Shown in pieces: positions 12,016 to 62,764 of a DNA stretch of 64,000 nucleotides. Origin of the DNA: Verrucomicrobiales bacterium (GTDB taxonomy: Bacteria; Verrucomicrobiota; Verrucomicrobiia; Verrucomicrobiales; DEV007); contig JAEUHH010000044.1 in NCBI GenBank assembly GCA_016795505.1, positions 1-64,000 on the forward strand, read 5' to 3'. Every line of letters begins with the position of its first letter. The first letter of the stretch is position 1. Made by a program: the position numbers and the translations under genes. The notes below the pieces were generated by a model that ran no database searches, was not told the DNA's origin, and saw nothing but the letters and a program-made list of their open reading frames with translations.

Positions 12016-12062
12016 CGATCATACAGGGTTTGATCGCCGATCATACCCTGTCTCATCGGAAA
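12016..12062. repeat. 22-bp-period palindromic repeat, two units in opposite core orientation (locus 2 of 8)
   Basis: The first unit has core ACAGGGTT, the second its complement ACCCTGT, inside identical CGATCAT left ends and ATCG right ends. The element separates the WGR/DUF4132 gene from the AAA+ gene and contains an in-frame ATG that would lengthen the latter. Confidence 0.85.
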
Positions 12063-15341: not shown

Positions 15342-15386
15342 CCGATCCAACCCTGTTCCACCGGCGATCCGACCCTTTTGGATCGG
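15342..15386. repeat. 22-bp-period palindromic repeat, two units (locus 3 of 8)
   Basis: CCGATCCAACCCTGTTCCAC then CGATCCGACCCTTTTGGATC: two head-to-tail units with the ACCCTGTT-type core; the second core has decayed to ACCCTTTT. Confidence 0.8.
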
Positions 15387-24716: not shown

Positions 24717-24717
24717 C

Positions 24718-24785
24718 GATCAGACCCTGTTGCCTCTCCGATGATACCCTGTTGACTCGGAGACCCAACCCTGTTCCTCTGTCGG
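24718..24785. repeat. 22-bp-period repeat, three units (locus 5 of 8)
   Basis: Three successive units, cores GACCCTGTTG, TACCCTGTTG and AACCCTGTTC, between purA and uppS. The middle unit is most complete (CGATGATACCCTGTTGACTC); the third has a one-base length change and a decayed left end. Confidence 0.85.
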
Positions 24786-27143: not shown

Positions 27144-29555
27144 ATGACGCCCGAGGAAAGAGCTGAAGTCATCGCCTGGATCCAGTCGGAACATGCCCAG
27201 CGCCGGGCATTGAACATCCATGCCGTCAAACGGCGCCGCCCCGACCTGCTGGCGAAAGTCTACGAAGTCCGGCCCTACTGGGGCTGGCGACAGGCGCTCG
27301 AGGACGCCGGCGTGCCCTACTCAGAGATCAAGGTCGAGCTGCTCAAGAAGGTGCGCTGCGCGATCTGCGGCTTCGAGGGAGCCGAGCTGGCCTCGCACCT
27401 CAACAGCCGGCACGGCCTGACCGGGGCGCAATATCACGAGCAGTATCCCGGCGCCGAGGTGTCCGCCGAGCGCCAACGGGCCAAACGACGGAGAAAGGGC
27501 CGCCTGTCCCTGTCCCACTGGGAGCCCCTCTACTCCGACGAATACATCATGGATCGGGTCTGGCAGCACCATCTCCGCGGCCACCCGCTCAATACCACCT
27601 GGGTTTACCGGAACGATCTCAACCTGTGGCAGCACATCCACCGTCAGGGTCGGAATTGGGAGGCTTTCGTCACCGACCTGGGCATTCCCTACCCCAAGGC
27701 CTGCGCCGTGGCCGTCCACGCCCCCGAGCCGGACGAGACGCTGGCCCGGCTCCGATCCTTGAGCGCCGAGCTGGGCCAGGCTCCCACCTACGCCTGGTTG
27801 GAGAAAAACGAGCCGAACCTCGCCTACGCGGTCCGCAAACACTTCGGCCGCATCCGGGCCGCCCTGCAACAAGCCGGACTCGTCGCACCCAAGCGAAAGA
27901 AGGCCCCCCGACGGGCCATGGGCGAGGACGAGGCCCTGGAGCGGATTCGCGTCCTGATGCAGGAGGGCGTGGTCATCACCCCGGAGGTCATCCGCGTCCG
28001 CGAGTCGCGCCTCCACGGGGCGATTTCCCGACTGCTGGGCGGCTATCCCGCCGTGCGGCGTCGGGTCGGCGCGCACGATCCCGCCCGCCCTCAACTGCCG
28101 CGATTGTCGCCCGAGGAAGTGAAGACCCGCATCCGGGAGCGCGCCGCTGCCGGCCTCGGCCTGCGCCATCAGGATATCAGGAAGGGTCCACACCGCGACA
28201 CGGGTCTCATCGAATCGATCATCACCCACTACGGCACGCTGGCTAAGGCCGTGACCGCCGCCGGCCTGCCGGTGGAGAAAAGCAGCCAGCGCCGCAAGCG
28301 AGAGCGCCGCGAGTGGGTCATCGAGACCATTCGCCGACGCCATTCAGAAAAGCTGCCCCTGCACCATCAAACACTCGCCACCGAGGAGGGCGGCCCGGAG
28401 TTGATGAAACAAGGTCACATCGCCTTCAACTCGTGGCGGAAGGCCCTCGCCGCCGCCGGCGTCGAAGCCGAATCGCCTACGGCCGAAAAGGACCGCGCCC
28501 GGGAAGAGGAGAAAATCCGGCGCGCTGCCGAGAGAAAGCGCGCCGCCGCCGCCCGAGAGCAGGCCAAAGCCAGGAAGAAGGCTGCCCTCGCCAAAAAGCG
28601 GGCCGCCCAGGCCCTGAAGCGGGCTCAGGCCAAAGAACAAGCCGCCAAAGCCAGGGCCGAAGCCAAAGAACAAGCCGCCAAAGCCAGGGCCGAAGCCAAA
28701 GAACAAGCCGCCAAAGCCAGAGCCGAAGCCAAGGAACAGGCCGCCAAGGCCAGGGCCGAAGCCAGAGAACAGGCCGCCAAGGCCAAGGCCGAAGCCAAAG
28801 CGCTCACGAAAAAATCCGCCGCCCCAAAGGCCCGCCGTTCCTCGGAGAAAAAGACGCCCCAACAGCGCCCGCCGGCCGCTCCGAAAGTCTCCGCCCCCAA
28901 GCCGCCGGAGATCATCCACCCGCCGGAGACCGTGCTGGCTTGGCTCAAAAAGCGCCGTTCCCAGGGGCAGCCCCTCATCCGGAAGGCCCTGTGGGCTGGC
29001 TCCGCCGCCGATCGCGACTGGGTGCGGGCCGCCGAACGCGCCTTTGGATCGTGGCGACTGGCCCTGCGCGCCGCCGGCATCGACGGCCAAGGTGTTCTGC
29101 CCTCGCGGGAGAAAATCATCGCCGAGATGCGGCGGCTGGCGAAAATCGACAGCGAATTACTCTCCGTGTCCGGCCTGCTCAGCGGCGACCTCAACCGGCG
29201 TCGGCTGCACCGGGCCATCATGAAAGAATTCGGCTCGCTGCAAACCGCCTGGGTCGAGGCCGGCCTCGTCAGTGAGTCGCCGCTGCCTTCGATCATTCGC
29301 GGACGCGGACGACCGCCCGGCAGCAAAAACAAGCCGAAATCCCGGTCCCGAGACGACGAACCCGACTTCGACGACGCCCACCTCGATGTCATCGCGCGCA
29401 TCCGGGCCCGGGCCGCGTCCGGGGCACCAATGCGCTATCAGGCGATGGTATCGGGGCCCATCGCGCGCCGCGACCCAGACCTCTACCGCGCCGCCACCCG
29501 GCTTTTCGGCGGCTGGAAACAGGCCCTGCGAGCCGCCGGCGTGCCCGTCCGGTGA
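27144..29555 (+). CDS. Modular DNA-binding protein: Ros/MucR finger, HNH-associated-type repeats, H1-like segment, AT-hook
   Basis: 803 residues, strongly basic. A Ros/MucR zinc finger is exact: C72-x2-C75-x9-H85-x4-H90, with the family's HGLTGAQYHEQYP tail. Around it are about nine helical units of 50-65 residues that end in a shared pattern, for example FGSWRLALRAAGI, FNSWRKALAAAGV, FGGWKQALRAAGV and WGWRQALEDAGV. They resemble the HNH/homing-endonuclease-associated repeat (a small DNA-binding fold), yet no nuclease domain is present. Residues ~470-550 form a Lys/Ala-rich segment with five 11-residue repeats, like histone H1 tails. Near 718-732 RGRGRPPGSKNKPK is an AT-hook. I infer a multivalent chromosome-binding or architectural protein. 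I do not recognise a named family for the whole. Confidence 0.7.
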   Translation: MTPEERAEVIAWIQSEHAQRRALNIHAVKRRRPDLLAKVYEVRPYWGWRQALEDAGVPYSEIKVELLKKVRCAICGFEGAELASHLNSRHGLTGAQYHEQYPGAEVSAERQRAKRRRKGRLSLSHWEPLYSDEYIMDRVWQHHLRGHPLNTTWVYRNDLNLWQHIHRQGRNWEAFVTDLGIPYPKACAVAVHAPEPDETLARLRSLSAELGQAPTYAWLEKNEPNLAYAVRKHFGRIRAALQQAGLVAPKRKKAPRRAMGEDEALERIRVLMQEGVVITPEVIRVRESRLHGAISRLLGGYPAVRRRVGAHDPARPQLPRLSPEEVKTRIRERAAAGLGLRHQDIRKGPHRDTGLIESIITHYGTLAKAVTAAGLPVEKSSQRRKRERREWVIETIRRRHSEKLPLHHQTLATEEGGPELMKQGHIAFNSWRKALAAAGVEAESPTAEKDRAREEEKIRRAAERKRAAAAREQAKARKKAALAKKRAAQALKRAQAKEQAAKARAEAKEQAAKARAEAKEQAAKARAEAKEQAAKARAEAREQAAKAKAEAKALTKKSAAPKARRSSEKKTPQQRPPAAPKVSAPKPPEIIHPPETVLAWLKKRRSQGQPLIRKALWAGSAADRDWVRAAERAFGSWRLALRAAGIDGQGVLPSREKIIAEMRRLAKIDSELLSVSGLLSGDLNRRRLHRAIMKEFGSLQTAWVEAGLVSESPLPSIIRGRGRPPGSKNKPKSRSRDDEPDFDDAHLDVIARIRARAASGAPMRYQAMVSGPIARRDPDLYRAATRLFGGWKQALRAAGVPVR
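28629..28793 (+). repeat. Five tandem 33-bp repeats within a coding region
   Basis: Five in-frame copies, each encoding KEQAAKARAEA or a close variant, at 28629, 28662, 28695, 28728 and 28761. The first copies differ by one or two bases and the last is the most diverged. In-frame expansion explains the H1-like Lys/Ala segment of the host protein. Confidence 0.9.
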
Positions 29556-49014: not shown

Positions 49015-49063
49015 TTTTCGATGAAACAGGGTTGGATCGGAGATCTAACAGGGTTGGATCGGA
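49015..49063. repeat. 22-bp-period repeat, two units, core AACAGGGTTG (locus 7 of 8)
   Basis: TCGATGAAACAGGGTTGGAT and GATCTAACAGGGTTGGATC: both cores in the complementary orientation on this strand, with a 22-base period. It lies between the ABC ATPase and permease genes of the pilus locus. Confidence 0.88.
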
Positions 49064-49105
49064 ATCTGGCTCCCGAATCCTGCGCCTGGTTTCCCCTCCC
49101 CCGGA

Positions 49106-62583: not shown

Positions 62584-62698
62584 GGAATCGGAGGGGAGGC
62601 AATCTGACAGGTCGGGGCTGCCACGGCGCAGCTAGCATGCCAGTTTTGGCCCGGCTGACAAGTCAGCGTTTTGGCCCGGGTGCCACGGCGAGGCCTTT

Positions 62699-62764
62699 CC
62701 GATCAGACAGGGTCTCATCTCCGATGCAACCGGGTCTGATCGCCGATGCAACCGGGTCTGATCA
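62699..62764. repeat. 22-bp-period repeat, three units (locus 8 of 8)
   Basis: The most regular copy: CCGAT starts at 62699, 62721 and 62743, an exact 22-base period. Cores are GACAGGGTC then CAACCGGGTC twice; the last two units are identical for 21 of 22 bases. The final TGATCA overlaps the TGA stop codon of the HipA gene, so the repeat provides that stop. Confidence 0.92.

Follow-up and report, generated by a model that had tools for sequence, protein, structure and literature searches.

The window, i.e., the whole 64,000-nucleotide stretch of DNA from a Verrucomicrobiales bacterium that we analyzed, encodes an 803-residue protein which is probably (at a rough probability of 0.6) a nuclease-free, multivalent regulator or local architectural protein that binds double-stranded DNA and is built from homing-endonuclease targeting modules. 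We infer DNA binding from family precedent and from the charge of the protein, and its multivalency, specificity, regulatory role and descent from homing-endonuclease modules are likewise putative. Judged by comparison with its orthologues, the conserved design appears to be a modular core plus a variable array. The features of the gene are:

27144..29555, + strand: open reading frame of 803 aa with an ATG start, pI 10.65, net charge +68
27150..27314, + strand: R1, the first HNH_repeat-like unit (residues 3-57), 64% identical to orthologues
27348..27467, + strand: Ros-type zinc finger (residues 69-108), C72-x2-C75-x9-H85-x4-H90
27528..27698, + strand: R2 (residues 129-185), weak by profile, 61% identical to orthologues
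27717..27887, + strand: R3 (residues 192-248), the best PF18780 match of the genome (34 bits)
27912..28079, + strand: R4 (residues 257-312), degenerate, recognized by its four-helix pattern and from orthologues
28101..28274, + strand: R5 (residues 320-377)
28290..28472, + strand: R6 (residues 383-443)
28479..28808, + strand: charged Lys/Ala/Glu segment (residues 446-555), a single long helix predicted at moderate confidence
28629..28800, + strand: 33-bp tandem repeat, 5.2 copies with 93% matches, coding for KEQAAKARAEA
28920..29087, + strand: R7 (residues 593-648)
29094..29273, + strand: R8 (residues 651-710), weaker (18.8 bits) and of low model confidence
29298..29333, + strand: AT-hook RGRGRPPGSKNK (residues 719-730), a GRP core with basic flanks
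29379..29552, + strand: R9 (residues 746-803), C-terminal

The GC3 of the open reading frame (0.81) is of the coding type and resembles that of neighbouring genes, and the paralogue check found one copy only of the protein in the source genome. An earlier note on this DNA had described about nine repeats of the kind associated with HNH nucleases. Pfam does detect this similarity, as HNH_repeat (PF18780) matches the protein in four stretches, with a score of 76.8 bits (cut-off 26) and an E value of 1.6e-21, and it is the sole Pfam family at E ≤ 10. The count of nine is also fair, since seven units are clear by profile and two (R2 and R4) are weak. In our unit profile R1, R3, R5, R6, R7 and R9 score 45-65 bits, R8 18.8 and R2 6.1, while R4 is missed in the window protein and its orthologue counterpart reaches 8-16 bits. 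This profile was built from the same protein family, which makes the scores partly circular; the independent evidence is therefore the Pfam match together with matches in remoter proteins (L111, L114, L115 and L116). The units are divergent, the others being 21-29% identical to R6, and their spacing is uneven.

AlphaFold2 gives a similar four-helix pattern for all nine units, with R8 at low confidence. The full model, in which this unit recurs next to one long helix at residues 446-555, has a pLDDT of 71 and a pTM of 0.30, and a separate model of the R5-R6 pair (41 alignment rows) reaches a pLDDT of 94.2 and a pTM of 0.66; the helices of its first unit are some 13, 6, 11 and 7 residues long. 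Neither model matched a PDB structure at E ≤ 0.001; the top matches of R5-R6 were TetR-family regulators at E ≥ 1.7. Against BFVD, the full model gave a single match, to a 466-residue uncharacterized siphovirus protein (E 4.3e-5, TM-score 0.14-0.21). The modelled unit fold is thus confidently predicted, and without a convincing solved relative, so that helix-turn-helix, the fold named in the earlier note, is a candidate description of the unit.

Between R1 and R2 lies the zinc finger, for which the proposed Ros type appears to hold. Its spacing is identical to that of the Ros ligands C79, C82, H92 and H97 (PMC9779718), and its four zinc ligands are invariant across nine aligned relatives. The window protein scores 22.3 bits with PF05443 (ROS_MUCR), which is below the cut-off of 25.4, but the orthologue L066 exceeds it with 26.5 bits. 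In the full model the finger has short strands and then two helices; Foldseek matched the full model to Ros (2jsp) with a probability of 0.80 but an E value of 3.5. The spacing and the helix pattern are common to the window protein and the Ros/MucR regulators such as Ros of A. tumefaciens. The Ros/MucR family is mostly described from alpha-proteobacteria, and its proteins oligomerize and bind AT-rich DNA. Its members are defined by an N-terminal oligomerization domain and a C-terminal finger within about 140 residues (PMC9779718; PMC11662661). The window protein has another layout, as its 803 residues make it five to six times longer and its finger is internal, with R1 ahead of it and eight units after it. 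The MucR-type N-terminal oligomerization domain was not seen in the window protein, where R1 occupies that place.

To find relatives, residues 1-429 were searched against 75 genomes of the same family, including the source genome. Matches were found in eight of these, i.e., in seven of the 74 others: five orthologues (42-44% identity over residues 1-440), one divergent relative (29%) and one partial. Three congeners, which are 86-90% complete, lack the gene. A wider contig search added the Opitutales relative L066, and samples of the phylum and class added four more (G381, G351, G281 and G656). The relatives come from Verrucomicrobiales, Akkermansiaceae and Opitutales assemblies. A second genus and further families of the phylum thus also have orthologues, and in several genomes the open reading frame is full-length. 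At E ≤ 1e-8 the core was present in only four of 384 class genomes, the source genome included, which marks it as rare and patchy, and its absence from most relatives implies a function that is not essential to the group. One short family member of 314 residues (L113:5691-8698) has genes in its vicinity that by eye resemble RadC and ImmA/IrrE, and it may be part of a genomic island. A PF18780-like stretch was also seen after the helicase in a 1272-residue fusion of HIT, PLD, ResIII helicase and S24-peptidase parts (L052:1783-5598); frames like this one occur in other genomes of the order, whose other families also contain similar helicases.

Conservation is concentrated at the N-terminal end. 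The core, consisting of R1, the finger, a conserved HWEP motif before R2, and R2 itself, holds 25 residues that are invariant across nine relatives, the zinc ligands included. R1 and R2 are the best conserved units across the orthologues: the window protein is 64% identical to the five close orthologues in R1, 48% in the finger and 61% in R2, and 30-40% in R3-R6. For the two closest pairs dN/dS is about 0.09-0.12 in the core and 0.16-0.26 overall, values that are rough as dS is near or above 1 (between two orthologues, the N-terminal core has a dN of 0.096 and a dS of 1.10). By these estimates the R1-finger-R2 core is the best conserved part of the protein and is under purifying selection. The net charge is +2 for R1 and 0 for R2, i.e., near neutral, and much of the charge of the protein therefore lies in linkers that are not conserved.

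The Lys/Ala segment and the AT-hook had been counted as parts of the same design. Five 11-residue repeats are indeed encoded by the 33-bp tandem repeat, but their proposed mimicry of histone H1 is not upheld. Residues 444-556 contain 36 Lys or Arg, 17 acidic residues (16 Glu and one Asp) and a single Pro, whereas an H1 tail is rich in Lys, Ala and Pro, poor in acidic residues and disordered. We rejected the likeness to H1 on this composition and on the predicted helix of 110 residues; on the model, the segment is better described as a charged helix of the TolA type. TolA was also the top NCBIfam match, although the NCBIfam matches are low-complexity cross-matches far under their cut-offs. The AT-hook is present as described, once, as RGRGRPPGSKNK. 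Neither element was found in any orthologue (the AT-hook being searched by the same pattern), which removes both from the design that the family shares.

Our preferred reading takes these parts together. The core of R1, the finger, the HWEP motif and R2 would make specific DNA contacts, and R3-R9 (R4 and R8 being degenerate), set on basic linkers, would lengthen the footprint or connect several DNA stretches. Such joined or extended binding may give the protein a role as a transcriptional regulator or a local architectural one. The target-finding modules of homing endonucleases would then have been reused without the cutter. Points that count against this reading are the near-neutral charge of R1 and R2, the lack of a significant match between the modelled unit and any known DNA-binding fold, the absence of a conserved neighbour gene and the absence of the gene from most relatives. 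In line with the earlier note, no catalytic domain was recognized: no nuclease domain exceeded its cut-off in the window protein (Pfam and NCBIfam, listed to E 10), and no nuclease family appeared in the relatives scanned with Pfam at E ≤ 0.01.

PF18780 is known from homing endonucleases. In our literature search PF18780 itself was never the subject of a study, its accession appearing in one paper, in a table of modelled repeats. The precedents we found are individual proteins. The one from Halobacterium hubeiense (WP_143416477.1), annotated as an HNH endonuclease, resembles the window array in its five N-terminal PF18780 stretches, and differs by a C-terminal HNH match (20.6 bits, just below the cut-off of 21.4) which the window protein does not have. 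A protein of Bacillus phage Goe9 (QMV48357.1), annotated as 'putative DNA binding protein', combines a Ros-type finger (28.3 bits, over the cut-off) with the homing-endonuclease-associated NUMOD3 in place of PF18780, and its C-terminal part is different and without a Pfam match. The gene for this phage protein (L168:1483-2352) immediately precedes that for the terminase large subunit. PF18780 is also combined with HTH_3, in a Brevibacillus protein whose annotation is transcriptional regulator. PF18780 and the Ros finger thus recur in nuclease-type and regulator proteins elsewhere, which makes both of them probable DNA-targeting parts.

The combination of modules looks new, as had been proposed, but nuclease-free PF18780 arrays as such are already public. 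On the B. subtilis plasmid pNIB353_1, a protein of 986 residues (WP_104843671.1, L171:1109-4069) consists almost wholly of 17 PF18780 stretches; it has no convincing catalytic match, its other Pfam matches being weak cross-matches. Two further nuclease-free PF18780 proteins (L115 and L116, 285-304 aa) come from other Verrucomicrobiota. Unlike the window protein, none of these that was scanned carries a Ros finger, and no AT-hook was noted in them. The B. subtilis units are also highly alike and tightly spaced, whereas those of the window are divergent. Among 14 aligned B. subtilis units, variability peaks at columns 22, 28 and 32 of 45, and columns 28 and 32 probably sit at the start of helix 3. 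This is consistent with, though no proof of, a wider reading in which PF18780 serves generally as a modular repeat for reading DNA and its nuclease-free arrays are natural long-footprint readers, independent of TALEs, that are used as regulators. Variable residues near the start of helix 3 would then let each four-helix unit contact a few base pairs, and the Ros finger would anchor the array. We regard this extension as unlikely. TALE repeats are near-identical units of a fixed 33-35 residues, with one or two hypervariable residues that read the DNA. The likeness of the window protein to TAL effectors and TALE-like proteins is limited to the idea of a DNA-reading repeat array, as its units are about 55 residues long, form four helices, and have no known code; divergent and unevenly spaced as they are, they do not make a TALE-like array.

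Among the other explanations, the gene could be the remnant of a selfish homing endonuclease, now decaying after the loss of its HNH domain, as PF18780 and fingers of the Ros type are each present in proteins that resemble homing endonucleases, the distribution is patchy, and the gene stands at a break in synteny with its congeners. We consider such decay improbable, as it is disfavoured by the core dN/dS of about 0.1 and by full-length frames in several genomes, with dN/dS low throughout and lowest in the N-terminal core. Since no scanned relative has a nuclease domain, the loss would have to be ancient, with selection for something else afterwards. The same patchy presence, together with the RadC-like and ImmA/IrrE-like genes near the relative L113, would fit a role in targeting, as one subunit of a defence system or mobile element whose nuclease or other effector acts in trans. 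This too is doubtful, because the neighbours of the orthologues differ and look like housekeeping genes, and the immediate ones in the window are uppS, the NtrC-type regulator and two transporters. An H1- or H-NS-like protein for non-specific, chromatin-like compaction would account for the very basic composition, the AT-hook and the Ros finger, and Ros/MucR proteins do work as H-NS-like silencers (PMC11662661). We nevertheless find it an unlikely account, given that the Lys/Ala segment is Glu-rich, predicted to be helical and, like the AT-hook, was not found in orthologues, that the MucR oligomerization domain was not seen, and that conservation resides in the modular core and not in the basic tails. 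The many units could still cause H-NS-like bridging to some degree.

The gene for the NtrC-type regulator ends 42 bp upstream of the open reading frame on the same strand. Congeners retain both dxr-uppS-ntrC and the pair of transporter genes, but on different contigs, so that the gene marks the synteny break. That the gene was recently and cleanly inserted between ntrC and its transporter neighbour is not demonstrable, as the congener flanks lie on separate contigs and are bordered by other genes. We also rejected a mobile-element origin of the window copy: with residues 1-429 as query, there was no relative on a viral contig and no plasmid match, and matches to phages were limited to the finger. 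The distant orthologues share no common neighbour genes, and nothing in their surroundings pointed to a regulated target.

The earlier note had raised a possible link to tandem 22-bp repeats in the same genome. These repeats exist, and in the window they are found at:

1031-1074, 12021-12053, 15344-15380, 24717-24780, 49024-49067 and 62698-62763: dispersed 22-bp motif

The consensus is approximately CGATCAGACCC(T/G)GTTGCATCGG; copies often follow one another with a period of exactly 22 bp, and most of them appear to be intergenic. With a pattern that specifies 13 bases and allows up to two mismatches, the window has 14 matches against 1.7 expected. The pattern was scanned over the 75 family genomes, and samples of 18-218 kb per genome were taken as well. 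The source genome holds 856 strict matches (reversed control 0) and the congeners without the gene 11-36, a contrast that is biased as the pattern was derived from the source genome. An array that reads these repeats, and possibly organizes the chromosome, would fit both their abundance and their 22-bp period. It is nonetheless very unlikely, as each of the three congeners without the gene also has copies of a looser core, ACCC(T/G)(G/C)T(T/C), paired at a distance of exactly 22 bp, the dxr-uppS gap included. Other spacings of 18-26 bp gave no pairs except one of 18 bp in G061. The orthologue genomes, by comparison, have few or no 22-bp pairs in their samples (G028 0 in 128 kb, G061 0 in 118 kb, G085 1 in 116 kb, and G068 4 in 194 kb when its contig C14 is left out). 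The motif does not follow the gene in its distribution, and the proposed link is disfavoured. Contig C14 of G068 (113 kb, L136-L138) carries the repeats at the density of the source genome, with no strict matches in 194 kb elsewhere in that assembly; mis-binning of this contig from a near relative of the source organism is a possible explanation.

The family provides a conserved context, free of a nuclease, for testing what the PF18780 module does by itself, and it links PF18780 with a finger of the Ros type beyond the alpha-proteobacteria. If the units do read DNA in a modular way, they would add one more repeat architecture to those that recognize sequences in nature. Otherwise, the proteins would still make up a defined, putative orphan regulator family.
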